Of a DNA stretch of 64,000 nucleotides, positions 16,003-46,262 are shown one piece after another. The notes beneath the pieces are model-generated. The model had not been told where the DNA came from. It worked only from the letters and a program-made list of their open reading frames with translations, and ran no database searches. Position numbers and translations under genes: made by a program. Location: contig PMSM01000009.1 of assembly GCA_003168335.1 (NCBI GenBank), positions 62,001 to 126,000 of the forward strand, in the 5' to 3' direction. The first letter of the stretch is position 1; every line of letters starts with the position of its first letter. The stretch comes from Blastocatellia bacterium. Lineage in GTDB: Bacteria > Acidobacteriota > Blastocatellia > Pyrinomonadales > Pyrinomonadaceae.

Positions 16003-16057
16003 AAGTTGTTTCTGCGACACATACCGACGCCGGCAGAGACGGTCTGACGAATATCAA

Positions 16058-16854: not shown

Positions 16855-16864
16855 AACTAAACAG

Positions 16865-17535: not shown

Positions 17536-17541
17536 GACTTC

Positions 17542-17615: not shown

Positions 17616-17624
17616 AGGAAAACT

Positions 17625-19646: not shown

Positions 19647-19649
19647 CCC

Positions 19650-20177
19650 ATGAATCGATTTCTCCTATTACCATTGGTGCTGTTCATTGGCCTGGTTGCG
19701 TTCCTGCTGGTTGGCCTGCATCGCGATCCGCATGAGGTGCCGTCGCCGCTCATCAACAAGCCGGCCCCTGACTTCAAACTAAGTCAATTAAAAGAGCCGG
19801 CCAGGACCTTCTCTCCTCAGGAGATGCGCGGCAAAGTGTGGATCTTGAATTTCTGGGGCACATGGTGTGTCGCATGTCGCGAAGAGCATCCGCTGCTGCT
19901 TGAGTTCTCCAAGACCGGCGCGGTGCCAATTTATGGCGTGGATTATAAAGATGACCCGGCAGCCGCAAAGCAAATGCTCGCGGAAGAGGGCAATCCGTAT
20001 GCAATGACCGTGTCCGATCCTGACGGTCGCACTTCGATTGATTACGGTGTCTATGGCGCGCCGGAGAGCTACTTGATCGATCGCAACGGGGTGATTCGAT
20101 TCAAACAAATTGGGCCGATTACCGAAGAAGTGTGGCAGAAGGAAATTCTGCCGCGGGCAAAACAGTTGAATCAATGA
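19650..20177 (+). CDS. ccmG: Thiol:disulfide oxidoreductase CcmG/DsbE
   Basis: Membrane-tethered thioredoxin that reduces CXXCH cysteines before heme ligation. It has 175 residues: a signal anchor (about 4-22) and a thioredoxin domain with FWGTWCVACREEHP (Cys73, Cys76) and the Gly-Ala-Pro-Glu loop YGAPESYLID containing the cis-Pro. The active site reads CVAC, where CVPC is more common. It starts four bases after the ccmF stop. Confidence 0.93.
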   Translation: MNRFLLLPLVLFIGLVAFLLVGLHRDPHEVPSPLINKPAPDFKLSQLKEPARTFSPQEMRGKVWILNFWGTWCVACREEHPLLLEFSKTGAVPIYGVDYKDDPAAAKQMLAEEGNPYAMTVSDPDGRTSIDYGVYGAPESYLIDRNGVIRFKQIGPITEEVWQKEILPRAKQLNQ

Positions 20178-20262
20178 AGCTGGAAGCGCGGACGGGCGGG
20201 GTCCCCAGCGGGGCAGCCCCGTTGGGGTGCTCGACTCGTCCGCATTGAGCGCGCAGCGCGAA
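20178..20262. repeat. Dispersed repeat, second copy of the GCGCGGAC family
   Basis: This 85-bp segment fills the ccmG-ccmH gap. It begins with GCTGGAAGCGCGGACGGG right after the ccmG stop, contains a GGGGTCC/GGGGCAG stem region, and ends CGTCCGCATTGAGCGCGCAG followed by CGCGAAA. It matches the block at 9491-9535 apart from the inserted middle. It is another case of a repeat lodged directly behind a stop codon. Confidence 0.65.
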
Positions 20263-20266
20263 AAGT

Positions 20267-20740
20267 ATGTACAAGGTTATGAAACGCGGGGTGTTTCTTT
20301 GGGCAATCGTTCTCGTATTTTCGGGCACGATGATCGCGAAAGAGGCGCAGCCTAACGAAGACCCGCAAATCGAGCAGCGCATGAAAGCGTTGACCGAGCA
20401 GTTGCGTTGCCTGGTTTGCCAGAACGAAACGCTCGCCGATTCGCGCGCTGACCTGGCCGAGGATTTGCGCCGCGAGATTCGCGAACAAATGAAGGCGGGC
20501 AAAAGCGATCAGGAGATCATCGCGTTTCTGACTGCCCGCTACGGCGATTTCGTGCTGTACAACCCGCCGGTGAAAAGGATTACATATCTACTCTGGTTCG
20601 GGCCGTTCATTCTCTTGATCGCCGGCACGGCCGTGCTCTATCGCTATCTGAAACAGCGCCGTGAGCTGATTTCTGACCAGCCGCTCAGCGCGGATGAGCG
20701 TAAGCGCGCCGCAGAGATCCTGCGGAACGAGATTGGATAA
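20267..20740 (+). CDS. ccmH: Cytochrome c maturation thiol protein CcmH/CcmL
   Basis: Periplasmic membrane-anchored protein that resolves disulfides on apocytochrome c. It has 157 residues with an N-terminal signal, the motif LRCLVCQNETLADS (Cys48, Cys51), the three-helix bundle EIREQMKAGKSDQEIIAFLT, RYGDFVLYNPP, and a C-terminal transmembrane helix (about 106-125). An alternative ATG lies at 20279. All family hallmarks are intact. Confidence 0.94.
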   Translation: MYKVMKRGVFLWAIVLVFSGTMIAKEAQPNEDPQIEQRMKALTEQLRCLVCQNETLADSRADLAEDLRREIREQMKAGKSDQEIIAFLTARYGDFVLYNPPVKRITYLLWFGPFILLIAGTAVLYRYLKQRRELISDQPLSADERKRAAEILRNEIG

Positions 20741-20746
20741 TTCGCA

Positions 20747-21625
20747 ATGTTAACCTTCTGGATAATTGCCGCTCTGTTTGTGCTGTTTGCACTGTGGTTT
20801 GTGCTCCCGCCATTGGTGCGAAAGACTGTCGATGACCAGGGGGACGACCGGCGCGCCGCCAATGTGCTCATCTATCAGGACCAGTTTAAGGAGATGGAAA
20901 CTGATCTGAAGAACGGACTGATGAGCGAGGAACAGTATCAGCAGGACAAAGAGGAGCTCGAGCGCCGTCTGCTCGAAGACTTCAACCGGCCCAGCCCGGA
21001 CTCGACAGCCGCAGCGCCGTCGACGCGAAAGTTTGTGTACGGCGTTGGCATGGCCATCCCCGTCGGCGTCATCGCTTTCTATTTCATAGTCGGCAATCCA
21101 AAAGCGCTCTCCCCTTCCCTGCCGACTGCGGGAATGGCTCCACCGGCTACTCAACAGGGCGGCCCGATGAGTGATCAGCAGATCGCCGCAAACGTCGACA
21201 AGCTGGCCAAACGACTCGAGCAGAACCCGAACGACGCCCAGGGTTGGTTGATGCTGGCGCACAGCTACACTTCGATGGAACGCTTTTCAGAAGCGGCGTC
21301 CGCCTTTGAGCGCGCCACCGCCTTAAACGGCAACGACGCCGGCATCTGGGCCGACTATGCCGAAGCTTTGGCGCTCTCCAGCGGCCGGCGCCTCGCCGGT
21401 AAGCCAGCCGAGGCAATCAACCGGGCCCTGCAAATAGATCCGAAGAATCAGAAGGCCCTGGCGCTGGCCGGGAGCGCCGCGTTTGAAGCGGGTGATTACC
21501 AGAAGGCGGTTGACTACTGGCAGAAGCTGCTGCCGCTATTGCCACCCGGTTCTGACATTGCGCAGACCGTGACCGAGGAGATCGCCAAGGCAAAGAAGTT
21601 GGCTGGTGATAAGGGCTCGAAGTAA
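20747..21625 (+). CDS. ccmI: Cytochrome c biogenesis TPR protein CcmI
   Basis: Holds apocytochrome c for the heme ligation complex. It has 292 residues: one helix at the N-terminus (about 2-20), a leucine-zipper-like cytoplasmic loop (DQFKEMETDLKNGLMSEEQY), a second helix (about 97-115), then periplasmic TPR repeats (about 145-285) with NPNDAQGWLMLAHSYTSMER. The layout matches the N-terminal CcmI plus TPR design. Last gene of the ccm operon. Confidence 0.9.
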   Translation: MLTFWIIAALFVLFALWFVLPPLVRKTVDDQGDDRRAANVLIYQDQFKEMETDLKNGLMSEEQYQQDKEELERRLLEDFNRPSPDSTAAAPSTRKFVYGVGMAIPVGVIAFYFIVGNPKALSPSLPTAGMAPPATQQGGPMSDQQIAANVDKLAKRLEQNPNDAQGWLMLAHSYTSMERFSEAASAFERATALNGNDAGIWADYAEALALSSGRRLAGKPAEAINRALQIDPKNQKALALAGSAAFEAGDYQKAVDYWQKLLPLLPPGSDIAQTVTEEIAKAKKLAGDKGSK

Positions 21626-30622: not shown

Positions 30623-31924
30623 TCACTCCACCTGTTGGAGGTTCAAGTTGATCCGCACACCGTTGACCAAGATAATGCTTTGGTTGATTAGCTCCTGGTT
30701 TGTAATATCCGCCTCGGCGAATTTCCGTATGGCCCTGAGCGGACACACGAACTCCACCGCTTCGGACGAGTGTCCAGCAGTTCCAGTCAAGTCATCCAGA
30801 ACGGTGATGTCGAGACCGCCAAGTTCTGCGTCATCCGGGATGCGTTCAAGGATTGACTTCAGTTGCGGCGCCAGAAAAAGATCAAAACTACGTGCTGCTC
30901 GCTTGTAGATCGACGTAGCTTCCTGGTCGAAAGTATTCGGATTGCGGAGCGTCAACTGAAGAACTATCTGGTTGCGGAAAACCGCAAATGACGGTGGCGC
31001 ATACGGCACAAAATGATAGGTGGACTGCCCTGCAGTGGCCAGGGCATCGAGTTGGGACTTGTATTTCGTTTCGAGACGTTCGGCGTCGCCTCGAGTACGC
31101 ACCACCGTCGCTATCGCTGGTGTCTGCATGCTGGCGGTTTCAGAAGTAGCACTCTCGTCCTGCCCCGTTCGCGCAAAATTCGCCGGGTCAGACGAAGGTG
31201 AAGGGGCACCTTGCCTTTGGTTTGCGGCCGTTGCCGGTTGCTTCACCGATCGTTGAAGTGTGGCAACGTCTAAGGGCTCACTTCCGCTCAGCGCCAAACC
31301 AAATGGCTTTCCGTTGAGGAATATCTCTGAGCGGTTCAGCAGTTCCTGCCGCTCTGAGTCGGTTGGTGCTTTGGCATAGCGCAAAGCATCGGCCTTACTT
31401 AGAACTGCGACCAGGATTTCCTTCCCTTCGTATTCATAGGGCGCGGCCTTTCTGAGTACGTGATAACAGATCTCGAAGCCAACTGCGTCAAAGCCATCAG
31501 AGGCTGAAAAGTACCCGGGTAAGATCTCCAGAAACTGGTAGACGACATCATTGAAGACCCGGCTGCTGCGTTGATTGGATGTCAGACGATCGGCATCGAA
31601 CGCGGCCTGGTAGTTTCCCGTCACCTTCAAGACTGTTTGATCGTGGAAGTTGACAAACTCCAAGCCGCGCCCATCGACGCCGGTTGGCGATTTAGGATCC
31701 GAGTTGACATAACGGTTCAGCGAAAAAGGAAAGGGATAGGTCAGTAACGGGACCGTACGATTAATGGCGATAAGTTTACTCAGGTGTGCCTGCTCGAGGA
31801 CCTTGAGACCAGGGTTGGAAATTTCTGCGGGACTAACCTGCGCAAAGCTGCGCGCCGGCCCAAAGAGCAGTAAGAGTGTGCAGGTGGCAACGAACGCGAC
31901 AGTTGATCGGCTGTTTGATTTCAT
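30623..31924 (-). CDS. Secreted protein of unknown function next to cluster 2
   Basis: 433 residues with a signal peptide ending near SFAQV. The two halves have related elements: an N-terminal part (about 60-205, FEICYHVLRKAAPYEY and KEILVAVLSKADALRY) and a C-terminal part (about 310-433, LGGLDITVLDDLTG and INQSIILVNGVRINLNL). They are joined by a Gln/Ser/Thr-rich linker (about 225-280). No cysteine or heme motif. It starts 14 bases after the monoheme cytochrome gene, so it is probably co-transcribed with the cluster. Confidence 0.6.
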   Translation of the reverse strand: MKSNSRSTVAFVATCTLLLLFGPARSFAQVSPAEISNPGLKVLEQAHLSKLIAINRTVPLLTYPFPFSLNRYVNSDPKSPTGVDGRGLEFVNFHDQTVLKVTGNYQAAFDADRLTSNQRSSRVFNDVVYQFLEILPGYFSASDGFDAVGFEICYHVLRKAAPYEYEGKEILVAVLSKADALRYAKAPTDSERQELLNRSEIFLNGKPFGLALSGSEPLDVATLQRSVKQPATAANQRQGAPSPSSDPANFARTGQDESATSETASMQTPAIATVVRTRGDAERLETKYKSQLDALATAGQSTYHFVPYAPPSFAVFRNQIVLQLTLRNPNTFDQEATSIYKRAARSFDLFLAPQLKSILERIPDDAELGGLDITVLDDLTGTAGHSSEAVEFVCPLRAIRKFAEADITNQELINQSIILVNGVRINLNLQQVE

Positions 31925-31938: not shown

Positions 31939-32418
31939 TTATTGTGACGCAGGCCGAGCTGAGGCTTTGTACGGCGGTTGAGCGACCGCGCGAGCGTAAG
32001 CCAGGACAGCTCGAATCTCGTCTGGCGTTAGCGTTTGACCCCAGGGTGGCATGATGGCGGATTTTCCCATTGCGCTGCCGCCAAGCGTGATCGTGTTCCG
32101 CATAAGGTCATCACTCAGCGAATTAAACGTTTCTCCGTCAGTAAAAAGCGGGGGCGTGGGAGTCAAGTTAGATCGGTTGGAGGGTCCGGCTGGAGTCGAG
32201 TCGGCATGGCACCAGACACAGTTATTGTTGAATACGCGCTTGCCTTGCGCTTGCTGGTAATTGAGCGGGATCAGGCGTTGTGGATCAGTTGAACTCTGCT
32301 CTACATCATAGGCGTTCAAGAGCGGATTGGCTGGTGCGGCCGCCGGTTTGTGTTGACACGATGAGAGGATCGCGATCGATGGAATGATCAAGAACAGAAT
32401 AAGATCTCGCCGTTTCAT
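31939..32418 (-). CDS. Monoheme c-type cytochrome lipoprotein, cluster 2
   Basis: 159 residues with a lipobox ending LSSC (Cys21), a linker, and a class I cytochrome c domain: heme site CVWCH (67-71) after GKRVFNNN, and the Met ligand in IMPPWGQ, followed by LTPDEIRAVLAYARA. Its ATG overlaps the stop of the octaheme gene (ATGA at 32415-32418). Likely soluble-side electron acceptor or donor for the second Rieske/cyt b complex. Confidence 0.9.
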   Translation of the reverse strand: MKRRDLILFLIIPSIAILSSCQHKPAAAPANPLLNAYDVEQSSTDPQRLIPLNYQQAQGKRVFNNNCVWCHADSTPAGPSNRSNLTPTPPLFTDGETFNSLSDDLMRNTITLGGSAMGKSAIMPPWGQTLTPDEIRAVLAYARAVAQPPYKASARPASQ

Positions 32419-34529
32419 TGCGCTCCTCCTGCCGTGGTCCCAGCACTGCCAGGGGCTTTCTGTTTGAGCGTCAACACATACGCGGTCAAAGCTTGCACTT
32501 CTTGCTCGGTCAAGCTACGACGCGGTTCGATTGTTCCCGGGACAAGCGCCTGTGGATTCTTGAGCCACTCTTCAATCCACGCGGCATTCAACCAATTCCC
32601 TGCGTTGCTCAAGTTGGGCCCAACATAGCCGCCCGCAGAACCGATCGTATGACAAGCGTTACATTGATATTTCACTTCGTAGAGTTGCTTGCCCATTTCC
32701 GCCATCTGAGGCGTGAACTGCTTTTGGTCAACAGCCGACAGCTTCACGGCAGCACTCTGCGTGACCATGCCTAAGTAATCAGCAATTACGGATGCGTCCT
32801 GGTCTGTTAGGTTGAATTGCGGCATCCGAAAGATCAGTGTTGGCCGCAGCGTTTGAGGATTCTTCAGGAAATCCATGATCCACTGACGTTGTGCTCTGCT
32901 CCCTTCAAACGACAGCTCGGGCGCGAGATTTCCGCCATCTCCATTGAAGCGATGACAGGCGGCACACTTGTAACGGTCGGAAAGTTCGCCAAAGGCGCCG
33001 GCGGGATGAAACGCACCCTGGGCTCGCGGCACTATGAGTCGCGCGAGGCTGCTGTTGGCAGGGCTGCCTGTCATGCCAAGCAGCGCAGTTGTAATCGCGT
33101 CCAGGTCTGTTGGGGTCAGACGATATTGCGGCATGCGTGCCGCTGGATTGACCGACAGCGGATCAGTAATCTTGGCCTGAATGTAGGAAATGATATTCCG
33201 CGGAATACTCGAATTGCCGAATTCGAGTTGTGAAACGTTCTTGCTGCCGAGAATCGCCAGGTCGGGGCCGAAATCCTTTTGGGGGCTGACACCTTGAATC
33301 ACGTGACAACTGGCACAGCCCTTTTCCAGGAACAAACGCTGGCCCAGGCGGATCTCTTCTTGCGCCGGCTCCTCAAGTGGCGGGACGTTGCTCAGGAGCT
33401 CGGGGTCAGTCAATCTCGTGTTGATGTACTGCGTGACTTTGTAAAGGTCTTGATCCGACCAGCGATAACGTGGCATCAACGCGTGCGGCAGATAGCTTTG
33501 CGGATCGCGCAACCAGGCAACCAACCAATCGGGATTGATTTTGCTGCCGACCTTTGTAAGTTCTGGGCCAATGTTTCCGCCAATCAATTTGGTTTCGTCG
33601 CCTTGGGTGACGGCGAGAGAGTGGCAAGTCGTGCAGAACATTTGCCGAAAACGAACTTCACCCTGGTCTGCCAGGTCGGGGCTCTTTTGCAAACTCGCTA
33701 CTACACCCTGATCGAATTTCGCTGGCTCTATGGGCTGACCTTTGAGCGTCGTCAGATAGGCTGACAGGGCCTTGATTTCTGGATCAGTCAGACGGAACTG
33801 AGGCATCCGCGGCTCTTCTACGGTCTCGTAACCGTCTACAACTGTGTTGCCTGAACTATCCACAACCGTATGCGGCTCTTTCAGCCACTTGTAAATCCAC
33901 TGGCGCGTCAGCTTGTTGCCTACGTTGCTCAGGTCCGGACCCAGCATCGCTGGCCGCTCGATGTCTTGCAGGTGGTGGCAGCCCGAGCAGTTTAGTTGAG
34001 ACAAGAGCTCCCGGCCTCGATTGAGCTTAGGGGTTTGCGGCAGATCCGCACGATGGCACACGCCGCACGACGCCTGGATAAATCTGATCGGCAACAGTGG
34101 TTGTTCCCAGGCCAGAGTTGTTTCGTGCGCCTCTGATATCTCGGTCGCCGGCCCCTGGCCGCGGTGACAGACTACACAACCCCATTTTTTGACATCGTGT
34201 GGGATGGCTGGATGAGCTCGAAAGGGTTGGGGCACTGATGCGTCGCTGAGACTGGTTTGCGAAATGCCCTGATGGCAGGTAGTGCAACGATCAAGCACTC
34301 GCATTTCAGGCAGCCAGATTTGATCGATGCCGGGATGAAAATCTGCCAGCAGGCGTTTAGTGTCTGGCCGGGTCTGCGCGTAGCTAACGTAATTCTTCTC
34401 ATATCGCTTCCAGGACTGGAAGAAATCCCTAACGGGTGATACCGCGAGGACTGCGACAAAAGCTACGCTCACCAGCGCGAATATCGCTCGCAGCCGCGTT
34501 GAAATCTCTCCCATCTTCTTCGCCGTCAT
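32415..34529 (-). CDS. Membrane-anchored octaheme c-type cytochrome, cluster 2
   Basis: 704 residues: an N-terminal transmembrane helix (about 12-31) and eight CXXCH sites at residues 82, 118, 155, 181, 299, 405, 522 and 623. The later ones lie in repeated cytochrome c modules with MPQFRLTD- or MPQYRLTP-type Met segments. The spacing of the first four hemes parallels the larger octaheme protein at 2493-6065, so the two are likely paralogues, but this one lacks the coiled-coil inserts. Starts one base after the subunit IV stop (TGAAATG). Confidence 0.9.
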   Translation of the reverse strand: MTAKKMGEISTRLRAIFALVSVAFVAVLAVSPVRDFFQSWKRYEKNYVSYAQTRPDTKRLLADFHPGIDQIWLPEMRVLDRCTTCHQGISQTSLSDASVPQPFRAHPAIPHDVKKWGCVVCHRGQGPATEISEAHETTLAWEQPLLPIRFIQASCGVCHRADLPQTPKLNRGRELLSQLNCSGCHHLQDIERPAMLGPDLSNVGNKLTRQWIYKWLKEPHTVVDSSGNTVVDGYETVEEPRMPQFRLTDPEIKALSAYLTTLKGQPIEPAKFDQGVVASLQKSPDLADQGEVRFRQMFCTTCHSLAVTQGDETKLIGGNIGPELTKVGSKINPDWLVAWLRDPQSYLPHALMPRYRWSDQDLYKVTQYINTRLTDPELLSNVPPLEEPAQEEIRLGQRLFLEKGCASCHVIQGVSPQKDFGPDLAILGSKNVSQLEFGNSSIPRNIISYIQAKITDPLSVNPAARMPQYRLTPTDLDAITTALLGMTGSPANSSLARLIVPRAQGAFHPAGAFGELSDRYKCAACHRFNGDGGNLAPELSFEGSRAQRQWIMDFLKNPQTLRPTLIFRMPQFNLTDQDASVIADYLGMVTQSAAVKLSAVDQKQFTPQMAEMGKQLYEVKYQCNACHTIGSAGGYVGPNLSNAGNWLNAAWIEEWLKNPQALVPGTIEPRRSLTEQEVQALTAYVLTLKQKAPGSAGTTAGGAQ

Positions 34530-34530: not shown

Positions 34531-35232
34531 TCATCTCCACGGCCAGACCCAGGACCAACCGGGCCCTCGGAAAAAAGTTCCCACCACGGTTAGAGTCAGC
34601 GCGACCGCAATAAACCAGGTCATCACCCACCAGGACAGAGGCCGCGTTTGCAGGAAGGTGATCAAACGGTGCGGTCTTTTCAATTGGAAGAAAGAGACAA
34701 TGGTCAGCCCGGCGATGGCTACTGTGGGCACGAGGACAGTCCAGGCTCGGTAAAGACCTAAAAACACAAGCAACAATCCAACGGACGCTATGAAGCTCAG
34801 AAATCGTCGGGAACGATCTGCCGCCCAGACCGGTTCCCCTTTGATGTTCACGTTGAAGTACGGAATTACCACCAGGGCCACCACGACAAATCCGGGAATC
34901 ACGATGCCGGCTACCAGCGGTGGAAAATAGTGAAGCAATTCCTGCAAGCCCAAAAAATACCAGGGGGCTTTGGCGGGATTCGGCGTTAGCAGCGGGTTGG
35001 CCAACTGTTCAAGCGGCGCATCCCAAACAAGCGCCACGACCACCAGCAGGATAGTTAACACCTCAAAGGCAATCAGCTCGCGCAGCATGAGGTGCGGATA
35101 GGACATTAATTGCCTGTCCGACCTTTCTTTGACCTGGGCGGAGGTCTTCGGAGTAATAAAGACCACCCGCTGCGGGGCCTTGAGCGCGTTTGATTTGATT
35201 CCGGCCTCGAATTTATTATTTGTCTCGCTCAT
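34531..35232 (-). CDS. Cytochrome b C-terminal / subunit IV-like protein, cluster 2
   Basis: About 233 residues from the ATG at 35232 ([11 protein letters not shown]). The quinol-site loop is [16 protein letters not shown]. About six helices follow, ending [15 protein letters not shown], a segment also present in the complex 1 paralogue (GTFIRGPGWIWFWPG). Overlaps the end of cyt b by 17 bp, which suggests coupled translation. Confidence 0.9.
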
Positions 35233-35959
35233 TACTCTCCCCAACCGTCAGGCCGCCATCTTTCCGAATGCGCCAGAAGTGGACTGCGATCAACAGAGCG
35301 GCCAGCAACGGAAGGATGACGCAGTGCAGAACATAGAACCGCAGCAGCGCGTTCTCGCCCACAAGATTTCCGCCCAGCAGCAGGTAGCGGAGCTGCGGTC
35401 CCACAAAAGGCGCTGAAGAGAGGATGTTGGTACCGACCGTAATTGCCCAGAAGGCCAGTTGGTCCCACGGCAGCAAGTAGCCCGTGTAGCTCAACAAGAG
35501 TGTGAGCAGCAGTAGCACTACGCCGATTGCCCAATTGAATTCGTGTGGTGGCCGGTAACCTCCGCGATAGAAAACGTGAAACATATGCCAGAACACGGCA
35601 ATCACCATGATGTGCGCCGCCACCCGATGCATATTGCGCAGAAAGACGCCGTTTGAAACGACGAACCTGAGATCTTTCATATCCAGGTACGCCTGCGGCG
35701 CCGCGGGATGGTAGTAGAACATCAGGAAAATTCCCGTCAGGGTCAGCACCACGAACATGAAGAAACTAATTGTGCCAAGGTAGTAGGTGGCGCGTACCCG
35801 CAGCGATTGCTCGCGCACCTTAACTGGCAGGAGATGCAGGAAAACATTACCGAAGATCGCCAGACTGCGCGTCCGGTTTGTGCGAGCTGGGCCACGACGG
35901 AAAATGGACATCCAGGCCCGCGTAGCGCGCAAACGATTCAGCATTTCTTCGGTAGTCAT
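35216..35959 (-). CDS. Cytochrome b6-type N-terminal subunit, cluster 2
   Basis: 247 residues with four helices. Helix B has [15 protein letters not shown]; helix D has [16 protein letters not shown] (14 residues between His, the b6 type). [19 protein letters not shown] is the standard loop that in complex 1 reads LPDDQ. It follows the Rieske gene by 9 bp. Pairs with subunit IV to give a complete cytochrome b. Confidence 0.93.
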
Positions 35960-35968: not shown

Positions 35969-36475
35969 TCAGACTCTCAACGCCTGTCCGGGCTTTATCG
36001 TTTCGAGCTTGTCCACCAAGAGTTCACCGTCAGGTGTAAGCGTGATCGCAAAGTGAGGGAGCGATCGGGGCGCCGGACCTTCAACCTTGGTACCATCACT
36101 TTTGAATTTGCTTCCGTGGCACGGACAAGCGATCAGATTTGCTTCCGGCTTCCACTGTGTATTGCAACCCAAGTGAGTGCAGACCGCTGATACTGCATAA
36201 AAGCCATCTGCGGTGCGCACGATATAGACCTGCTGATCGGGCATATAGGTAACCGAATCCAGTGGATAGAGATCTGGTGTACCGGCGCGAAAATTCATGG
36301 ACGGCTCGAACAAAGCATTCGGCAAGAGGTATCGATAAGTCACAACCAGGGCGCCGAGTCCGGCAATACCAAACGCGCCCGCCGCAATTGCGTTGAAGAA
36401 ATCACGGCGTCCGATTTCTCCACGCCCAGATTCCTCTGGCCTTCCGGCTATAGTTGTCGCCAGAACGTCACTCAT
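35969..36475 (-). CDS. Rieske 2Fe-2S protein, cluster 2
   Basis: 168 residues from the ATG at 36475, which overlaps the flavoprotein stop (ATGA). N-terminal GRRDFFNAIAAGAFGIAGLG looks like a twin-arginine-type or membrane-anchor segment, although only RR-D-F-F is seen, not a full Tat motif. Cluster ligands are CTHLGC and CPCHGSKF. It closes with EGPAPRSLPHF, the usual Rieske end. Confidence 0.94.
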   Translation of the reverse strand: MSDVLATTIAGRPEESGRGEIGRRDFFNAIAAGAFGIAGLGALVVTYRYLLPNALFEPSMNFRAGTPDLYPLDSVTYMPDQQVYIVRTADGFYAVSAVCTHLGCNTQWKPEANLIACPCHGSKFKSDGTKVEGPAPRSLPHFAITLTPDGELLVDKLETIKPGQALRV

Positions 36476-38421
36476 ACCGCTCGCACCTCCAGCAACGATT
36501 GGTTTGGGTCTCGATCGAACACCTGAAACGCTTCCATCGTAATTGTGTGGGCGGGACAGCGAACGGCGCAGAGTCCACAACGGATGCAAATCGTTTCGTC
36601 CTTTAACATCATCGAGCCATGAGTCGCCGGCAGGTCCGTCGGGTGCAGGTGTTGCAGACTCGTCTTATGAAATTGAGCCTCACTAACAAGTTGCGCTTTT
36701 ACTTCCTCCGAAATTGTTAATTGGCTGAGAGGTATCAGTTGCAGGCAATTCTCCGGACAGACATCCACACACCCGCCGCACAAAATACATTCCGTTCCTG
36801 TCGACTCATTACCTTCAAAGATCGTGTTGATCCAACATTGCAGGCAACGGGTGGCCTCGCGACGCGCTTCGTCTTCCGTGTAGCCTGCTTCCACTTCTAC
36901 CACTCCGGTCCGCCGGTCAATCGGAATTACCGGAACTGCAAGCCGAGAGTACTCGTCGTAGGATTCGGCCATCTGGTGATGATCGAGAACTGTGATTTGC
37001 ACAAACCGCGGCCGCGGTTTCCATTCTCCTCCTCGCAGATAGTGATCGATGTTTTCTGCCGCCTTTTTGCCGTCAGCAACCGCACTGATGATCAGACGCG
37101 GACCAAAGGCAATATCCCCGGCGGCGAAGACTCCGGGCACGCTGCTCATCAGCGTGTCTTCATCTATCTTGATCGTGCCCTGGCGAGTAATCTCAATCTC
37201 ATCAGCCTGAGTAAGAAAAGAAAGATCGGATGCCTGACCGATGGCTAGAATGACGGTATCGCAGTCGATCACTGCTTCTGTCCCCTGTTCGAACGTAGGA
37301 TTGAAACGGTGGTCCGAGTCGAAAACCGAGGTGCAGCGAATTGTCTCGACTCCGGTCACTTTGCCGTCTCTGCCGAGGAACCCTTGCGGGCCCAGCGAAG
37401 GATGCAGCTTCAACCCTTCCAGCTGGCCCTCCTCGATTTCTTCCCCGAAAGCGGGCATTTCTGCGCGCGACTCCAGACAGATCAGGTGGACTTCGCGCGC
37501 GCCGAGGCGCAAGGCAGCGCGCGAAACATCCATCATCTCTTTCATTGCCACCTGTTGCGCACCGGCGCTTAAGCTCTCTGGCAATTCCTGGGTGGTAAGG
37601 TCTTCGAGCATCAAGCGCTGCTGCTCACGCAGGGCAGAGCGCGCCACGTCGATGGCCACATTGCCGCCGCCGATCACAACTACTTTTTGACCGATCGAAA
37701 AGCGATAGCCAAGATTGACGTTCAACAGAAAATCTATGCCTTTGATTACGCCATCAAGCTCGTGGCCCGGCACCGTCAGGTCACGGCTCCGATGCAGACC
37801 GAGCGCCAGCAGAACAGCCTTGAAACCCTGAGCGCGGAGATCTGTAAGCGAAAAATCCCGGCCCAGGCGGGCGTTAAGTTTAAGCGTGATACCCAGGTCC
37901 AGGATTTCCCGAATTTGCGCGTTCAGCACATCACGCGGCAAACGATACTCAGGAATACCCAGATGGAGCATGCCACCGGGAATCGGGGCGGCATCGAAAA
38001 TCGTTACTGGGTAACCCAGCAAAGCCAGATCGTGTGCGGCGGCGAGTCCGGCCGGTCCGGAACCAATTATCGCCACCTGGTCCGGGCGTGAAACTGAAGG
38101 CTTGTCGGGAAATACGTCGATGGGGTTACGCGACTCTGGTCCGTAACGCTCTGTCAGAAAGCGTTTGAGGGCGCGAATGGAGATCGGCGCGTCAAGTTGG
38201 CCGCGCCGACAGTCGGTTTCACACGGATGCCCGCAGACCCGGCCACAGATAGAAGCCAGTGGGTTGGGCCGGCGGGCATAACGGTACGCCTCTTCGTAGC
38301 GCCCTTCCGCGATCAAGGCGACGTAGCGTCCGGCTTCCGTGTGAACAGGGCAGGCCTGCATACACGGGAAGTTAGACTCCAGCCATTCGAGATCGACGAG
38401 TTTTGAGTGTGATCGCTCCAC
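36472..38421 (-). CDS. Fe-S flavoprotein oxidoreductase, GltD-like with extra ferredoxin domain
   Basis: 649 residues. An N-terminal GltD-type 4Fe-4S region has CMQACPVHTEAG and ICGRVCGHPCETDCRRG (about 20-72). Then the FAD motif IGSGPAGLAAAHDL, GGMLHLGIPEYRLPRDVL, and an NAD(P)H-site GGGNVAIDVARSALR. At the C-terminus two more 4Fe-4S sites follow, CILCGGCVDVCPENC and CIRCGLCAVRCP. Known relatives move electrons between NAD(P)H and ferredoxin-like centres. Here it is fused by overlap to a Rieske/cyt b operon instead of a glutamate synthase large subunit, so it probably links NAD(P)H to the quinone/cytochrome chain. No export signal, so it should face the cytoplasm. Partner and direction are inference. 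Confidence 0.88.
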   Translation of the reverse strand: MERSHSKLVDLEWLESNFPCMQACPVHTEAGRYVALIAEGRYEEAYRYARRPNPLASICGRVCGHPCETDCRRGQLDAPISIRALKRFLTERYGPESRNPIDVFPDKPSVSRPDQVAIIGSGPAGLAAAHDLALLGYPVTIFDAAPIPGGMLHLGIPEYRLPRDVLNAQIREILDLGITLKLNARLGRDFSLTDLRAQGFKAVLLALGLHRSRDLTVPGHELDGVIKGIDFLLNVNLGYRFSIGQKVVVIGGGNVAIDVARSALREQQRLMLEDLTTQELPESLSAGAQQVAMKEMMDVSRAALRLGAREVHLICLESRAEMPAFGEEIEEGQLEGLKLHPSLGPQGFLGRDGKVTGVETIRCTSVFDSDHRFNPTFEQGTEAVIDCDTVILAIGQASDLSFLTQADEIEITRQGTIKIDEDTLMSSVPGVFAAGDIAFGPRLIISAVADGKKAAENIDHYLRGGEWKPRPRFVQITVLDHHQMAESYDEYSRLAVPVIPIDRRTGVVEVEAGYTEDEARREATRCLQCWINTIFEGNESTGTECILCGGCVDVCPENCLQLIPLSQLTISEEVKAQLVSEAQFHKTSLQHLHPTDLPATHGSMMLKDETICIRCGLCAVRCPAHTITMEAFQVFDRDPNQSLLEVRAV

Positions 38422-38509: not shown

Positions 38510-39091
38510 TCAGAACTCGACGTTAGTAGTTCCGCCGCCGACATCGACGTCTTTCGATTTGGACGCGCCACCCATGGTCCTGAGCGTCACATGGCCCTGC
38601 GGGACACCTCTGATCACAAAACTCCCATCAGCTTTGGTTTGAGCGTAAAAAGGTGTCGGTACCACATATATGAGTCCCGACATTTCTGGGTGGACATTGC
38701 AGAACAATGTCACCACTCCCGCGTCCCAAAACGCGAAGGATTTCGTTTCGCCTTGTGGCCAAGTGCCCAAATTATTTGGCTTGGGGGATTTCCAGTAAAC
38801 GTTGTGGCCGACCGCATCGCTGTTTAGGAAGTCGACAGTGGTCCCTCTCAGCACGATGAGAGAGTGGGGAATGAACTTCATCCCCCTCTGATCGATTTTG
38901 ACGTGCTTGCCCTCGCCCTTATAGTCCTGGCCCTTGATCCAATCGACGTAAACGAGGGTCCCGGCGCGGACGCCGCTTACCTTGCCCTGGATCTCCTGAG
39001 CCATGCTGACGCTGGCTAACGCCGCTACAATTACCAGGAATTCAAGAACGGATACGACGGACAGTAGCGGTTTATGAAGTAACGATTTCAT
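38510..39091 (-). CDS. Exported cupredoxin-like copper protein
   Basis: 193 residues from the ATG at 39091, set by a strong ribosome site (AAAGGAG). Signal peptide ends near SMAQE. The type-1 copper ligands are His96 (AVGHNVYW), Cys131, His134 and Met137 (FCNVHPEMSG). A short regulatory-like tail follows (DGSFVIRGVPQG). It lies between the porin-cytochrome and the flavoprotein, which suggests a periplasmic shuttle between outer and inner membrane. That role is inferred from position. Its counterpart in complex 1 is the lipoprotein at 1499-2374. Confidence 0.82.
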   Translation of the reverse strand: MKSLLHKPLLSVVSVLEFLVIVAALASVSMAQEIQGKVSGVRAGTLVYVDWIKGQDYKGEGKHVKIDQRGMKFIPHSLIVLRGTTVDFLNSDAVGHNVYWKSPKPNNLGTWPQGETKSFAFWDAGVVTLFCNVHPEMSGLIYVVPTPFYAQTKADGSFVIRGVPQGHVTLRTMGGASKSKDVDVGGGTTNVEF

Positions 39092-39155
39092 TGCGATGAT
39101 TCTCCTTTCAAGAGAGCACATGTTTAGTTCCGGGGGACCGGCGTTAGTCCGTAAA

Positions 39156-40583
39156 TTAGAAGACGTAGTCGAGCCCGAATACGAAGCCGTTGGCCCGGAA
39201 ACGTCCCGACGGATCCACCTGTTGCTGCCAGCGCCGCTGATACTCGAAGACCGCTTTGATATTGCCGCGGATAAGTATCTGGACGCCTGGCGAAAAACGG
39301 TTGCGCGTGTTGTGTACAGAAGCGCCGTTCAGAAAATCTGTGGGTGAGTTCACGACGTCGTATCTCATGATTCCGATCACCCACGGATAAAACCAATATT
39401 GCGCCTGGGCGAACCCTCCGGTGAACGTGACCGGGGTCCCTTTCTCCACCAGCCCAGTCGTGTCGTTAGGGATCAGGTTTTGATCACGCCCGTGCATCCC
39501 GAGCCCATAGACTTCGAACTTGCGATACTTGAAACGAAAGTCGCCGCCGGCGCGGTAGAAAGGCTCACGGATGGTTCCAAATCCCGGAAAGAGTGTGCCG
39601 TCGAGATTAAGTTCGTTGCGGCCGTAGTAGTAAAAAGCTCCCACCCGAAGCGACGTATGATCGCGCGGTCCAGCAGCGCTGGCGGCCTGCACGTCTTTGC
39701 GGTTCTTTGGGTCGCGCTCTAAATTGAACCGCTGAGCCACGCGCACGTAGATGTCCTTTGAGTTGCGCATGGTCGCGGTACTATTCGTTCCATTGACCAA
39801 AGCAACAGACCAATTGAAATTCCCGTCGTTCGGGTAACCCCCGATTTCAATACCACGCTGGGGCGCGCCAAACATGAACGGATTGTTGGTGGTGCCCAGC
39901 CCTCCGGCGACGCTGGCTTGATCGTAGATATCGTAACTGGTCGGATTTATGCTGCGCGCTTGCGTGAAAGGCAAATCCAATTCGAATTGCCCAAAGCGGA
40001 GGTTGAGGGCATCCTTCGGCAAGCCGAGGTGGTGGCCCAGATCGTTTACCTTCAGATAGCCGTCGCCCAATCCGCCATCAGCTCCCGACCCACCTGTTGA
40101 GATGTCGTCGTCTACCCAGAAGGAGAGGTTCTGTCCGAAGCTGCCGGCGGCAATGATCGTGAACGTATTTGGCTGGAATAGATCTGTCCGCGGGACAACG
40201 CCTGCCGACAGTGGTTGCTTGTTGTTGTAGACAGCGAATCCCGAATAGCGAAAGGATATGGGAATCGTTCCCGGGATCTCGCCTGGGTAAATGACTTTGG
40301 GAAAGTTCTCGCGTTGGGCCTCGGCTCCCAACATTACTGGCGGCTCTTTGACAAAAGTCTCGTCGTCCTTGGGAAACTTGAAGCCGTTCTTCTTGAACGC
40401 TTCGCCGAAATCATTCAGCTCGGGAGGATTGCTGTGACAAGTCTGGCAAGAAGTTTGGTACTTCCGAGCAAATGCCGGAATGGCAAAGGCCTTTGGTGCC
40501 GGCTTCAGCAGTATGAACAGGAGCAATGGAGCACCGGTGAGGATGAAGGCTTTAACCAAATTAGTGCTTCGCTTATGAAACAT
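39156..40583 (-). CDS. Fused monoheme cytochrome-porin, Cyc2-like outer-membrane protein
   Basis: 475 residues. A signal peptide (about 1-34) is followed by a short heme domain with CQTCH at 46-50 in the context SNPPELNDFGEAFKKNGF. The remainder (about 100-475) has alternating polar and aromatic strands typical of an outer-membrane barrel and ends in Phe (LDYVF). A single heme N-terminal to a barrel is the design of Cyc2-type iron oxidases, and the sequence after the heme site resembles theirs as I recall it. Other non-iron porins share this N-terminus, so Fe(II) oxidation is a hypothesis. It is preceded by an AAAGGAG ribosome site and a palindrome at 40631-40650. Confidence 0.72.
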   Translation of the reverse strand: MFHKRSTNLVKAFILTGAPLLLFILLKPAPKAFAIPAFARKYQTSCQTCHSNPPELNDFGEAFKKNGFKFPKDDETFVKEPPVMLGAEAQRENFPKVIYPGEIPGTIPISFRYSGFAVYNNKQPLSAGVVPRTDLFQPNTFTIIAAGSFGQNLSFWVDDDISTGGSGADGGLGDGYLKVNDLGHHLGLPKDALNLRFGQFELDLPFTQARSINPTSYDIYDQASVAGGLGTTNNPFMFGAPQRGIEIGGYPNDGNFNWSVALVNGTNSTATMRNSKDIYVRVAQRFNLERDPKNRKDVQAASAAGPRDHTSLRVGAFYYYGRNELNLDGTLFPGFGTIREPFYRAGGDFRFKYRKFEVYGLGMHGRDQNLIPNDTTGLVEKGTPVTFTGGFAQAQYWFYPWVIGIMRYDVVNSPTDFLNGASVHNTRNRFSPGVQILIRGNIKAVFEYQRRWQQQVDPSGRFRANGFVFGLDYVF

Positions 40584-40933: not shown

Positions 40934-42301
40934 TCAACGAAACTGGCCAAGATCGAAGCTGAATCTCTTGGCGAGACGATAGATGGTCTTGCGAGAGAGC
41001 TTGGCCTCGGCGGCGGCCTTAGAGATATTGCCGTGGTGCTTTCTGAGCAAGTCCTCCAGAAAAGGCTTCTCGACGTTCTCGGCCTCTTTATCACGGACCT
41101 CAAGAAACGATAGTTCCGCGCAAGAACCAGGCTGCATGTATTCCGGGAGATCACAAAGCCCAATAGATTTACTCTCCGCCATCAAGACAGCATGTTGGAT
41201 GACATTCTGAAGCTCGCGGACATTTCCTGGCCACTCATAGACCGAGAAAAGCTTGCTTACCTCAGAACAAACTTCGGGCGGCGTGAGCTGATACTCCTGG
41301 CAGTAGTAACTCAAGAAGTGGTTGGCCAAAATTGGAATGTCATTCTGGCGATCTCGGAGCGGAGGCAAACTCACGGTTACTGCGTTCAACCGGTAGTATA
41401 ATTCCTGGCGAAATTTGCTTGCGACAATCTCATTCCGCAGATTGCGGCTCGTAGCTGAGATGACTCGAATGTCCACCAGGATCTGACGTTCGCTTCCCAG
41501 CCTCCGAAATTCGCGCTCTTGCAACACCCGCAGAAGCTTGGCCTGAAGCGCAAAGGAGAGTTCGCCGATTTCATCCAGGAAGAGCGTTCCCGTATGAGCC
41601 AGCTCCAACTGGCCTCGTTTAAGCCGATCGGCGCCGGTGAATGCGCCTTTTTCGTGCCCGAAGAGTTCACTCTCCAGCAAATTCTCCGGTAAAGCGGCAC
41701 AATCGACTGCCAGGAATGGCATATCTCGGCGAAAACTGTGCGCATGAATAGTACGCGCCACCAAATCCTTGCCGGTACCGGTCTCCCCCTGGATCAAAAT
41801 ATTCGCATTCGTACGAACGACTTTTTGGAGCGTGCCAGAGAGTTTCTGCATTGCCTCACTCGTACCCAGGATCTTGTCAAACCCAAGGTCGTTAGTTGGC
41901 TGTTCGCGCAGATTGAACTTTTCCTCCAGCAGTTGTTTTTGTCGCAAACTCTGCTCAACCGCAGAACGGAGCTGATCGGCAGTGAAGGGCTTGGCCAGGT
42001 AGTCAAAAACACCACGCTTTACGGCTTCAACGGCTGTTTGAATCGTCGCGTAGGCGGTGAACATAAGGATCATCAGCGTGGGATCGGCTTGCCGCGCCAG
42101 GCTTACCGTTTCCAAGCCGCTCAGGCCGGGCATTAGCATGTCCACCAGGAACAGATCATAGTGTCTGGATTTCAGGAGGTTCAGCGCTGAGTCACCATCG
42201 GGTGCTGTCGTGACTTCATGACCGTCGTGCTCGAGGATTTTTCGGCACGTGCGCAGGATCGCCTGGTCATCGTCCGCCACTAGAATTCGTGTCGCGTGCA
42301 T
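40934..42301 (-). CDS. Sigma-54-dependent response regulator (NtrC family)
   Basis: 455 residues from the ATG at 42301, two bases after the kinase stop (TGAAATG). Receiver domain with phospho-acceptor Asp54 (LFLVDMLMPG); AAA+ domain with Walker A GETGTGKD, the sigma-54 contact loop GAFTGA, and FLDEIGELS; C-terminal Fis-type helix-turn-helix ISKAAAEAKLSRKTIYRLAK. It would activate RNA polymerase holding sigma-54 when phosphorylated. The cluster downstream on the same strand is the likely target. Confidence 0.95.
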   Translation of the reverse strand: MHATRILVADDDQAILRTCRKILEHDGHEVTTAPDGDSALNLLKSRHYDLFLVDMLMPGLSGLETVSLARQADPTLMILMFTAYATIQTAVEAVKRGVFDYLAKPFTADQLRSAVEQSLRQKQLLEEKFNLREQPTNDLGFDKILGTSEAMQKLSGTLQKVVRTNANILIQGETGTGKDLVARTIHAHSFRRDMPFLAVDCAALPENLLESELFGHEKGAFTGADRLKRGQLELAHTGTLFLDEIGELSFALQAKLLRVLQEREFRRLGSERQILVDIRVISATSRNLRNEIVASKFRQELYYRLNAVTVSLPPLRDRQNDIPILANHFLSYYCQEYQLTPPEVCSEVSKLFSVYEWPGNVRELQNVIQHAVLMAESKSIGLCDLPEYMQPGSCAELSFLEVRDKEAENVEKPFLEDLLRKHHGNISKAAAEAKLSRKTIYRLAKRFSFDLGQFR

Positions 42302-42302
42302 T

Positions 42303-44294
42303 TCAGCCCTCAGTCGGTAGGACAATTGTGAACTTGGTGCCCCGGCCAAGCTGACTCTCTATAGTAATCGTTCCTTGATGCTCTTTGACAATGCCGTGGA
42401 CGAGCGACAGCCCTAAACCCGTACCTTTGCCTACTTCCTTGGTGGTGAAAAACGGATCGAAGACTCGATCCATGTGGTCTTCCCGGACACCCGTTCCAGT
42501 ATCAGCAATCTCCAGTCGTACCCGCTTGCGCATTCGGTCTTCCCAGAAAACACCTATGCTCAAAACCCCGCCTCGCGGCATTGCGTCGATGGCATTGCGG
42601 TAGAGATTCTCCAGCGCGCGGACCAGGCTATCTTCGTCGCCTCGCACGCGTATCATCTCTCGCGGGAGGTCCTTTTCCACCGAGATCCTGTTGGCAGTCA
42701 GCAAATCATCGACTAACCGCAAGCTAAGATTAATAACGCGATCAAGCGGAATTGGCTTCATCTCTAATATTTGTGGACGAGAGAACTCGAGCAACGAGGT
42801 AGTGATTCGGGCGATACGTTGGGCCTGAGTCATCACCTCCCTCAAATCTTCCGGGTCGACGGCAACCGGTTTTCCGGCGTTTTGCGATACCCAGAAGCTC
42901 GACAAACTAAGGATCGTAGTCGCTGGGTTGTTGATCTCGTGGGCCACGCCCGCGGCCAGTTCCCCGACCGCTGCAAGTTTGGAAGATTGGTAGAGTTGCT
43001 TCTGGGCCTTTTCGATCTCTCCGGTTTGTTCTCGAATCTTCGCGCTCGCGCCCCGCACCACCAATCCAATCATCAGAGTAGAAAGAGCAACCGTTGCCGT
43101 AAAGAGCGAAAAGATAAGAACAATCTGTCGCCGTATATGCTGGTCAAGAAATTCGCGACTGCCATAAAACGCAACTTTCCCGGTTGAAGTTGTTTTCAGA
43201 GGAAGCTCATGAATGAGGAAGTACTCCTCTGGGTCGAGTCGGATTGATGGTGAGACTGACTGCAGGCTGCGGGGCGCGGAAACTTCTCCGTTGTCAGCAA
43301 TTTGTAAGGTGACGATCTGGTTATCAGCGGAAATGCGAACGATCTTCAATTCAGGCAGGTTGTCAAACTCACCGATTGCCTTTGGCAGATCCTCTCGAGC
43401 AACGATGGCAGCCAAAGGCTCGTTTTGTTGTCTAAGGCTGTCTACATTTTGGCGCACAAGCTCCGCCAGTTGATCGGCGCGTCCACGAATGCTCGCGAAG
43501 TAGTCCGCCTTTTCGCTCTGGGTGATCACCAGCAGCATAAGGCTGGCCAGGAGGATAAATGTGATCTGTAGCCGCACAAACACTTTGTCGGACAAGTTTC
43601 GACTGGTTTCACCAATCGCCAGGGCACAGGTAAATAAGGAGAACGACCACGCAAACTGTTCCAAGTTCCAGAGGATGAGGGACGTGTTATCTCCCCAATT
43701 CAACGAAGAGACAAAGTGAAGCGAAGCAGCCGCGAAAACCAGAGCCAGAGCGCCGGCAGCATAGCGCCGGCCGCCGAGGGGGCTGCGATAAACATGAACA
43801 AGAGTGAAAGCTATCAGGACCACGTTCGCCAAATCCAAGAACATCATCAGTTTCGGAGTGAGATTGCCGAGCGAACCGGACAGAAAGAGCAAAGCGGGAA
43901 GCGAGAGCAGCAACAAGAAGAGCAGCCATTGACCGGGTATTAGTACTCTTGACTGGCGCAGCCTTGGAAATGGATATGCGCTGGCCGCCAACAGGAGCCA
44001 CGCACCCGCCTGAAACATGTGAAACACTGATTCGAAGGATGCTACCGGCAGTCGGTAGCGAAAGAAAATAAAAGCACCGGAAGAAAGTGCCTTCGTGGCG
44101 AAAGATGCGCCCAGGGAGGAAAATGCAAGAAGAAGGAGGAGCTGATTTCGGACGGGAATCGTCTTTGTCTGCGCCCGCCATGCCCTCAAGATCACCAGGA
44201 CGATAATCCCGCACAAGAGCACATCGAACAGATTGAATATGAACCTGTTCTCAAATGTTCGCGAGAAAAGCTCTAGTTTTCCCAGAGGCTCCAT
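42303..44294 (-). CDS. Membrane sensor histidine kinase (NtrB-like output)
   Basis: 663 residues. About eight transmembrane helices in the N-terminal 250 residues form an unassigned membrane sensor, then a periplasmic or membrane-proximal segment (about 260-385) and another helix (about 388-408). The output has a coiled coil, HisKA with the phospho-His in ELAAGVAHEINNPATTI, and HATPase_c with N (ALENLYRNAIDAM), G1 (IADTGTGV) and G2 (GKGTGLGLSLVHGIV) boxes. It is paired with the downstream sigma-54 regulator. The signal sensed is unknown; quinone or redox state is a natural guess given the neighbours. Confidence 0.93.
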   Translation of the reverse strand: MEPLGKLELFSRTFENRFIFNLFDVLLCGIIVLVILRAWRAQTKTIPVRNQLLLLLAFSSLGASFATKALSSGAFIFFRYRLPVASFESVFHMFQAGAWLLLAASAYPFPRLRQSRVLIPGQWLLFLLLLSLPALLFLSGSLGNLTPKLMMFLDLANVVLIAFTLVHVYRSPLGGRRYAAGALALVFAAASLHFVSSLNWGDNTSLILWNLEQFAWSFSLFTCALAIGETSRNLSDKVFVRLQITFILLASLMLLVITQSEKADYFASIRGRADQLAELVRQNVDSLRQQNEPLAAIVAREDLPKAIGEFDNLPELKIVRISADNQIVTLQIADNGEVSAPRSLQSVSPSIRLDPEEYFLIHELPLKTTSTGKVAFYGSREFLDQHIRRQIVLIFSLFTATVALSTLMIGLVVRGASAKIREQTGEIEKAQKQLYQSSKLAAVGELAAGVAHEINNPATTILSLSSFWVSQNAGKPVAVDPEDLREVMTQAQRIARITTSLLEFSRPQILEMKPIPLDRVINLSLRLVDDLLTANRISVEKDLPREMIRVRGDEDSLVRALENLYRNAIDAMPRGGVLSIGVFWEDRMRKRVRLEIADTGTGVREDHMDRVFDPFFTTKEVGKGTGLGLSLVHGIVKEHQGTITIESQLGRGTKFTIVLPTEG

Positions 44295-45347: not shown

Positions 45348-46262
45348 GTGAACACCAATATGGCTCTCCCGCCAAGCATTCAATCAAGCGCCGCTGGAGA
45401 AACGGCCATGAAAAATTCGGCGGCACGACTCTCGATCGTCGTCGCCGTCTTCCTGATTGCACTCAAAGGCACGTCGGGCTGGCTGACAGGCTCCATTAGC
45501 GTTTGGGCTTCGCTGCTCGATTCCGTGCTCGACCTGTTCGCCTCTACATTGAACTTCATCGCCGTGCGTGCCTCATCGCAACCAGCCGACGAAGACCATG
45601 CCTATGGACACGGTAAAGCAGAATCTCTGACGAGCCTCTTCCAGGCGATTGTCATCGGCGCCTCCGGCATGTTCATCGTCTGGGAAGCGGTCCACAGGAT
45701 TAGAGAGCCACATCAGACCCGCTCCGAATTGATTGGGATTGCTAGCATGATTGTGGCCATCACGGCGAGCGTATGGCTGGTGAGAAGACTGCGACGTGCC
45801 GCACATGAGACGGACTCGCCGGCGCTGAGCTCGGATGCACTCCATTACATGGCGGACATCTATATCAACGCTGGCGTGCTCGTTGCGCTTCTGCTTACAG
45901 CGTTGACTCATTGGACCCTGGCCGACCCGTTGATCTCGCTGGCGATTGCGCTCTACATACTTAAGTCAGCGTTCGCGCTGGGGCGCGAATCGATAAACGT
46001 CCTGATGGACCGAAGGCTGCCGGTCGAAGTAGACGATAAGGTAGCCGAGATAGTGGCCCGCTACCAGAATGAAGGCGTGCAGGGCTTCCATGACTTGCGT
46101 ACGCGGCGGTCGGGGTCACAACGGTTCGTCGACTTACATTTAGAAGTCGATCGGAACCAGCGGTTCGAAGACGCTCATAATCTAACAGTGAAAATATTAC
46201 GAGCGATCGAAGCGGAAATCCCTCGCACCAAAGCGCACATCCACACCGATCCAACCGAGTAG
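45348..46262 (+). CDS. Cation diffusion facilitator (metal efflux) protein
   Basis: Proton-coupled exporter of divalent metals (Zn, Fe, Mn, Co) in the inner membrane. 304 residues from a GTG at 45348; an ATG at 45360 is an alternative. Six helices; metal site in helix 2 ASLLDSVLDLF (DxxxD), DEDHAYGHGKAE after helix 2, and HYMADIYINAG (HxxxD) in helix 5. The C-terminal cytoplasmic ferredoxin-like domain carries GVQGFHDLRTRRSG and HLEVDRN. Metal choice cannot be read. If the neighbouring cluster oxidises Fe(II), iron or manganese efflux would fit, but that is speculation. Confidence 0.93.
   Translation: MNTNMALPPSIQSSAAGETAMKNSAARLSIVVAVFLIALKGTSGWLTGSISVWASLLDSVLDLFASTLNFIAVRASSQPADEDHAYGHGKAESLTSLFQAIVIGASGMFIVWEAVHRIREPHQTRSELIGIASMIVAITASVWLVRRLRRAAHETDSPALSSDALHYMADIYINAGVLVALLLTALTHWTLADPLISLAIALYILKSAFALGRESINVLMDRRLPVEVDDKVAEIVARYQNEGVQGFHDLRTRRSGSQRFVDLHLEVDRNQRFEDAHNLTVKILRAIEAEIPRTKAHIHTDPTE

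Follow-up and report, generated by a model that had tools for sequence, protein, structure and literature searches.

Many Cyc2 homologs occur in organisms not known to oxidise iron and have gone uninterpreted, and the Cyc2 authors state that confidence in the function of such a protein depends on its context (PMC8406198). A gene of this kind, here called CYC, lies in the 64,000-nucleotide stretch of a Blastocatellia bacterium that we analysed (hereafter the window; contig PMSM01000009.1, positions 62,001 to 126,000), and it raises the question of what a Cyc2-like protein does in this acidobacterium and in which direction it would pass electrons. An earlier note, made from the sequence alone, had recognised a monoheme cytochrome fused to an outer-membrane barrel. 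Its reading of the architecture was correct overall; the operon around the gene was not named there. What the present analysis adds is a divergent Cyc2-family member within a conserved respiratory operon (Table 1), and the operon is more informative than the architecture.

Table 1. Genes of the CYC operon and its upstream regulators, in window coordinates
Feature	Coordinates	Strand	Remarks
Membrane histidine kinase, upstream, overlaps regulator	42303..44294	-	
Sigma-54-type response regulator, upstream of CYC	40934..42349	-	
CYC, Cyc2-type monoheme cytochrome fused to predicted 16-stranded outer-membrane barrel	39156..40583	-	475 aa
Exported type-1 copper protein (plastocyanin/amicyanin-like)	38510..39121	-	Pfam PF00127 7.9e-07, amicyanin PDB matches
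GltD/NfnA-like Fe-S flavoprotein, putative NAD(P) oxidoreductase	36472..38421	-	Pfam Fer4_20, Pyr_redox_2, Fer4; PDB NfnA and related
Rieske 2Fe-2S protein	35969..36589	-	nearest PDB chains 9rk4/9rk3
Cytochrome b6-like subunit	35216..35959	-	four hydrophobic segments; best NCBIfam ExtP, below cut-off
Subunit-IV-like cytochrome b C-terminal protein	34531..35244	-	best NCBIfam ExtQ, below cut-off
Octaheme c-type cytochrome	32415..34529	-	eight CXXCH sites
Monoheme c-type cytochrome	31939..32418	-	
Exported protein without known family, operon end	30623..31924	-	AF2 pLDDT 81.6, pTM 0.53

The cytochrome-porin and its kinship to Cyc2

The CYC open reading frame is real and is read on the minus strand (40583 to 39156), which the earlier note had left unstated. 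A signal-like hydrophobic segment at residues 8-26 (simple hydrophobicity scan) is followed by AIPAFARKYQTSCQTCHSNPPELNDFGEAFKKNGF, and the first heme cysteine, C46, lies about 12 residues past the likely cleavage near residues 33/34 (judged by eye), a spacing that had been given correctly, as had the C-terminal Phe of a chain that finishes in ...FGLDYVF. Set beside the Cyc2 criteria of one heme c, more than 365 aa and a signal peptide, CYC has exactly one CXXCH, 475 aa and this N-terminal segment. The published Cyc2 signature, AXPXFAR[Q/K][T/Y] - CXXCH - PXL (PMC8406198), is present exactly as AIPAFARKY-QTS-CQTCH-SNP-PEL and nowhere else in the window's six reading frames. A relaxed form of the pattern also has a single match in the window, and none in 300 base shuffles of it. 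Many near relatives read FSR instead of FAR. No Pfam or NCBIfam model matches CYC, the PDB holds no credible sequence relative (best E 0.64) and the gene is present as a single copy in its own genome.

Conservation was followed in an alignment (A1) of the window protein and 21 homologs, down to 26% identity, these being 21 of 26 listed homologs (L010, L019 and L023-L025 left out; L003, L014 and L027 outside that list). Invariant columns number 24, one of them the start Met, and include C46, C49, H50, P54, L56, G60 and G67; residues 1-100 hold 17 of the 24, making the heme domain the most conserved part, and no His or Met that could serve as sixth heme ligand is conserved across the 22 rows. 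That CYC might be a plain porin whose heme motif is degenerate or arose by chance has virtually no probability, and is ruled out by the invariance of the motif and its surrounding columns in these 22 divergent proteins and by its absence from the 300 shuffles.

A genome scan with A1 and the pattern YxTSC[QTS]TCH yielded 316 stretches, of which 248 were confirmed and the best 80 kept. These best 80 comprise 79 Acidobacteriota MAGs (Blastocatellia, Terriglobia, Bryobacterales and others) and one Ignavibacteria MAG (L128) whose CYC copy is interrupted by a stop; the closest among them is 'Chloracidobacterium sp. UBA6041' at 89% identity. Intact CYC reading frames were found at 74 of the 80 loci, with a terminal F or Y in 73 and a single CXXCH in all 74, a count biased by selection because the scan pattern itself contained the heme motif. 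CYC matches at E<=0.001 occur in 84 of 297 sampled Acidobacteriota genomes (own genome counted), many of them short and confined to the heme region, which points to other Cyc2-like proteins. The distribution of the gene is patchy, as the 18 other genomes of the same genus or family are all without a match, and no plasmid homologs were found. The presence of cyc2 in Acidobacteriota MAGs is already in print, for four of six MAGs (PMC10367259).

An AF2 model of CYC was built from 72 rows (alignment A2: the window and 71 of the 74 intact reading frames, leaving out L116, L121 and L126), with a mean pLDDT of 71.3 and a pTM of 0.71. It contains the predicted barrel with the 16 strands expected for Cyc2, counted by DSSP as strands of at least six residues from 109-120 to 466-474 and spanning residues 109-474; two four-residue strands (370-373 and 378-381) were left out of the count. 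The model carries no heme, and the heme region (residues 28-61 and 66-106) has pLDDT under 50. Foldseek returned 16-stranded porins, the best fold matches being OprP (Z 25.0, rmsd 3.4, 315 aligned) and OprO (Z 24.9), with the other listed porins at Z 21.7-23.1. OprO and OprP are also the templates reported for Cyc2PV-1; a fold in common with them says nothing on function.

Chlorobi Cyc2 references were chosen by motif and FmoA, not by name, from the phylum of the Ignavibacteria genome mentioned above (G297), which was sampled at 395 genomes; FmoA scored over its cut-off in 94 of these and A1 found matches in 114. Five loci from FmoA-bearing genomes (L197, L198, L199, L207 and L208) encode FARQT/YARQV-type Cyc2 proteins, and a published set of Chlorobi Cyc2 includes that of Chlorobium luteolum DSM 273 (PMC12442345). 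CYC is about 24 to 27.5% identical to the five along the chain. Aligned by hhalign against them, it gave E 1.7e-17 over residues 23-164 with a broad alignment and E 7e-12, over the heme domain only, with a narrower one. The proteins thus share descent in the heme domain and, on the broad profile, in the first strands too. In this phylum many genomes with FmoA also have Cyc2-like genes of the FARKY type, as many as four matched stretches being found in one genome. Surveys based on FARQT may miss FARKY-type genes as cyc2.

The tree comprised 82 proteins and 418 of 774 columns, with an arbitrary root. Its intake was six of the 74 intact scan reading frames, 16 proteins of the G297 phylum and the reference set minus L228 and L229 (more than one heme); it held no Cluster 2, Cluster 3 or other Cluster 1 Cyc2 members. 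A further alignment, A3, consisted of 50 of 54 rows plus the window. CYC falls in a clade with 13 Acidobacteriota proteins (100/100), and apart from it stands the Chlorobi Cyc2 set (100/100), on a reference side that carries a long-branch warning; the set groups there, at the far side of the tree, with a further FARQT group (99/96). Chlorobi-type genomes also contribute FARKY proteins, which make up a clade of their own (100/100). All A1 rows and six scan rows carried the label 'acido_operon', including L021, L022, L026 and L028-L030, which received it without operon genes being sought or found; proteins so labelled do not form one clade (7 changes, at least 4 forced), and this scatter means that the operon is either old or has moved.

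The exact signature, the 16-strand model, the OprP/OprO match and the profile homology together identify CYC, as far as sequence and model can, as a Cyc2-family cytochrome-porin lying outside the Chlorobi Cyc2 set. The same four lines of evidence support the earlier call of a monoheme cytochrome with an outer-membrane barrel, and its Cyc2 architecture and homology stand; as a member of an Acidobacteriota clade apart from Chlorobi Cyc2, CYC is at most a candidate iron oxidase. Neither of the results that would have spoken against the earlier call was obtained: the model has a barrel, and the heme motif is intact and conserved. Like Cyc2PV-1 of Mariprofundus, which has a potential of about +200 mV, and the Cyc2 of Acidithiobacillus and Chlorobi, CYC has a signal-like start, one heme c within the signature and an OprO/OprP-like 16-strand barrel; unlike FARQT-form Cyc2, it has the FARKY form. 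Among Cyc2 clusters, the function of Cluster 3 is described by the Cyc2 authors as the most uncertain (PMC8406198), and a cave study placed all Cyc2 from 25 MAGs in that cluster (PMC13264449).

A respiratory operon around CYC

The genes 3' of CYC, all on the minus strand, follow in the order copper protein, flavoprotein, Rieske protein, b6-like subunit, subunit IV, octaheme cytochrome, monoheme cytochrome and exported protein. The copper protein scores below the cut-off of the NCBIfam amicyanin model, and its C-terminal part resembles CarboxypepD_reg, again below cut-off; 54-55 of the 55 copper proteins in the alignment share its ligands H106, C141, H144 and M147, a conservation that indicates a type-1 copper site. 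The flavoprotein ends in 4Fe-4S domains, and the subunit-IV-like protein has four hydrophobic segments in a simple scan and a possible fifth by eye. The last exported protein returned no PDB fold match at E<=0.001, no NCBIfam match and a single sub-cut-off Pfam match (SAVED); its AF2 secondary structure suggests two similar alpha/beta halves.

Among the best 80 scan loci, counting for each gene only those whose sequence extends far enough downstream, the copper protein is present in 73/73, the flavoprotein in 61/68, the Rieske protein in 60/67, b6 in 57/63, subunit IV in 55/58, the octaheme cytochrome in 53/54, the monoheme cytochrome in 50/51 and the exported protein in 43/46. CYC, copper protein, flavoprotein, Rieske, b6 and octaheme cytochrome occur as a complete six-gene set in 56 of the 80 loci, many of whose contigs end early, and in 15 of 20 loci of a separate Acidobacteriota set, at least four contigs of which are common to both. 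None of the 30 largest other families (antisense ORFs aside) appears in more than 13 of the 80 loci. Upstream of CYC the kinase is found in 3 and the regulator in 2 of 59 scan loci, and regulator homologs in 7 of 20 loci of the separate set.

The linkage is weak outside Acidobacteriota. Among 20 loci of the G297 phylum, whose genomes may be MAGs, the copper protein was found at 8, Rieske and b6 at 3 and the flavoprotein at 1; the six-gene set is complete at one (L181), and L177 and L195 are without the flavoprotein. Forty further Cyc2-like loci (3.2-16 kb) contain copper-protein homologs in 7 cases and Rieske homologs in 3. L195, from an FmoA-bearing genome (G386), has a tandem pair of CYC-like genes at 668-3778 before the Rieske, cytochrome b, subunit IV and cytochrome genes.

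A minimal form, with CYC and the copper protein and without flavoprotein, Rieske and b6, was seen in the fetched sequence of 10 of the 100 loci of the scan and the separate set, some of these sequences being short (L043, L048 and L050; L068, L076, L082, L090, L091, L109 and L128), and L068 retains the octaheme gene. This form makes CYC plus copper protein look like the unit, as with Cyc2 and rusticyanin. A diheme cytochrome family is present in 8 of the 80 scan loci and lies beside CYC in L076, L082, L090, L091 and L109 (Pfam was run on two).

The flavoprotein offers a view of the linkage from the other side. A search of the 297 genomes at E<=1e-100 found 73 places in 67 genomes. At 54% identity or above, a threshold chosen after inspection of the list, 26 of 27 places (own genome counted) lie within 8 kb of a CYC match, the 27th being on a different contig from its CYC, and below 54% only 3 of 46 do; at six of the 26 linked places the neighbour resembles CYC in the heme region only. 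This flavoprotein subtype therefore goes with Cyc2-like genes, while other such flavoproteins do not. Upstream of CYC homologs no sigma-54 promoter signal was seen (3/73 vs 53/2000 random stretches), and base composition, at 55.1% GC in the operon and 56.0% in the window, gave no sign of a recent transfer. We found no description of this operon in open-licence PMC literature, a body of text that holds no preprints and lacks most subscription papers.

The Rieske protein has its best PDB matches in 9rk4 (2.9e-26) and 9rk3 (5.4e-21), which are Kuste4569 and Kustd1480 of Kuenenia (PMC12954380). In the same paper the Kuenenia complexes combine an NAD(P) oxidoreductase with hexa/octaheme cytochromes, a b6-like cytochrome and a protein resembling subunit IV, and quinol electron bifurcation is put forward as their way of producing NAD(P)H (PMC12954380). 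The CYC operon has the same component list as Kustd1480-1485 and Kuste4569-4574, the Rieske protein alone having been compared by sequence; by our own reading its CPCHGSKF has Ser and Phe at the tuning positions, like Kustd1480. Kuste4569-4574 includes an HAO-like octaheme protein, and the consulted passages on these complexes mention no Cyc2-type porin (PMC12954380). A second likeness is to the extHIJKLMNOPQS cluster of Geobacter, described for selenite/tellurite reduction, which also brings together a porin, a Rieske protein, a cytochrome b, a membrane protein and c-type cytochromes. All Ext scores stay below the NCBIfam cut-offs (ExtP 252.4 of 290 bits, ExtQ 55.8/150, ExtS 67.4/100, ExtJ 20.0/52.5); Geobacter ExtI is described as porin-like, and CYC matches no NCBIfam model. 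The own genome has three ExtP-like cytochrome b genes. On the minus strand of the window there is a second Rieske gene (8297-8914) with a cytochrome b (7341-8264) and a large c-type cytochrome protein (2493-6065), a group near a CtaA-like gene (496-1410).

A possible electron route and its direction

Most likely, the system carries electrons between a redox partner outside the cell and the NAD(P)-linked Rieske/b complex of the operon. In the reading that we prefer, to which we give a probability of about 0.6, CYC is the outer terminal of a dedicated electron-transfer chain with inward flow, to quinol and NAD(P)H. Its heme, at the periplasmic mouth of the barrel, would exchange electrons with a dissolved redox partner inside the pore, and the copper protein would ferry them through the periplasm in the role that rusticyanin has for Cyc2. 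From there the monoheme and octaheme cytochromes could hand electrons to the Rieske/b complex, which together with the cytoplasmic flavoprotein would couple them to the quinone pool and NAD(P). Used inwardly, such a chain would oxidise an extracellular reductant and provide a heterotroph with quinol and NAD(P)H, with Fe(II) as the first candidate substrate of CYC. No RuBisCO match was found in the own genome (controls matched in 5 of 14), which argues against Calvin-cycle autotrophy, not against mixotrophy.

The blue copper protein beside CYC recalls the rus operon of At. ferrooxidans; where the latter has an aa3 oxidase, the CYC operon has a Rieske/b complex and an NAD(P)-type flavoprotein. 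In At. ferrooxidans electrons are described as passing from Cyc2 to rusticyanin and uphill via CycA1 and bc1 to NADH-1 (PMC8790237). Here, by contrast, the uphill parts and the NAD(P) enzyme would sit in one operon. A bolder version of inward flow, which we think unlikely, is a one-piece uphill route in which a Cyc2-type oxidase, a copper shuttle and the Rieske/b complex carry electrons from an extracellular donor, Fe(II) for example, to quinol and NAD(P)H and bypass separate bc1 and complex I steps. If true, such a route would be common among those Acidobacteriota of soil and peat from which iron oxidation is not known.

Could the same chain run the other way? Quinol would then be oxidised by the Rieske/b complex and its electrons bifurcated: one would reach NAD(P)+ by way of the flavoprotein, and the other would travel along the cytochromes, the copper protein and CYC to reduce Fe(III), Mn(IV), humics or a similar acceptor outside the cell. 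We rate this as rather unlikely and favour inward over outward flow by about two to one. Type-1 copper proteins, the potentials of which are usually high, speak against it, as does the argument made for Cyc2 that a single heme in a small pore suits dissolved Fe2+ and not solids (PMC8406198). Outward flow nevertheless has several points in its favour, since quinol electron bifurcation towards NAD(P)H has been proposed for the Kuenenia complexes (PMC12954380), Cyc2 has been proposed as the terminal Fe(III) reductase in anoxic At. ferrooxidans (PMC8790237), Fe(III) reducers are reported among Acidobacteriota (PMC6137239), and the b subunits score best, albeit below cut-offs, with ExtP/ExtQ of the Geobacter selenite/tellurite cluster.

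A redox-gated or redox-sensing porin, whose heme controls anion or metal uptake beside a complex with another purpose, would fit phosphate porins being the best fold matches of CYC, and most Chlorobi copies are without a respiratory operon within the fetched sequence. We nonetheless consider it quite improbable because in Acidobacteriota CYC is tightly linked to the type-1 copper protein and the Rieske/b genes and because the heme domain is the most conserved part of the protein.

These results connect one branch of Cyc2 with a particular respiratory complex, one that has NAD(P) chemistry, and copper protein, Rieske/b complex and flavoprotein form a proposed chain that is testable. Should the inward reading hold, soil and peat Acidobacteriota become candidate Fe(II) users; should flow be outward, they would use extracellular acceptors and bifurcate electrons to NAD(P)H. 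Either direction informs how cyc2 is read in metagenomes and what NAD(P)-linked Rieske/b complexes do.

Other features of the window

Two ORFs on the minus strand (9558-13901, 153 nt apart) match the two halves of magnesium chelatase subunit H/CobN in swapped order, the C-terminal half (12087-13901) lying upstream of the N-terminal half (9558-11933). This BchH-like pair suggested photoferrotrophy, which is not supported: the own genome gave no PsaA/PsaB match, in a search whose control matched in Synechococcus only and which distant type-I centres may escape, and no BchL over the cut-off, with three weak matches below it. An FmoA search of the own genome returned nothing either, but its controls gave no match, and it carries no weight by itself. 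Upstream of the kinase is a gene for a cation efflux protein (CDF; 45348-46262, +); L197 and L198 have a homolog of it about 3.5 kb away from their Cyc2 gene, possibly by coincidence. About 9 kb from the operon end is a cytochrome c maturation cluster (CcmB, CcmC, CcmE, CcmF, a thioredoxin-like protein, CcmH and CcmI; 15319-21625, +).
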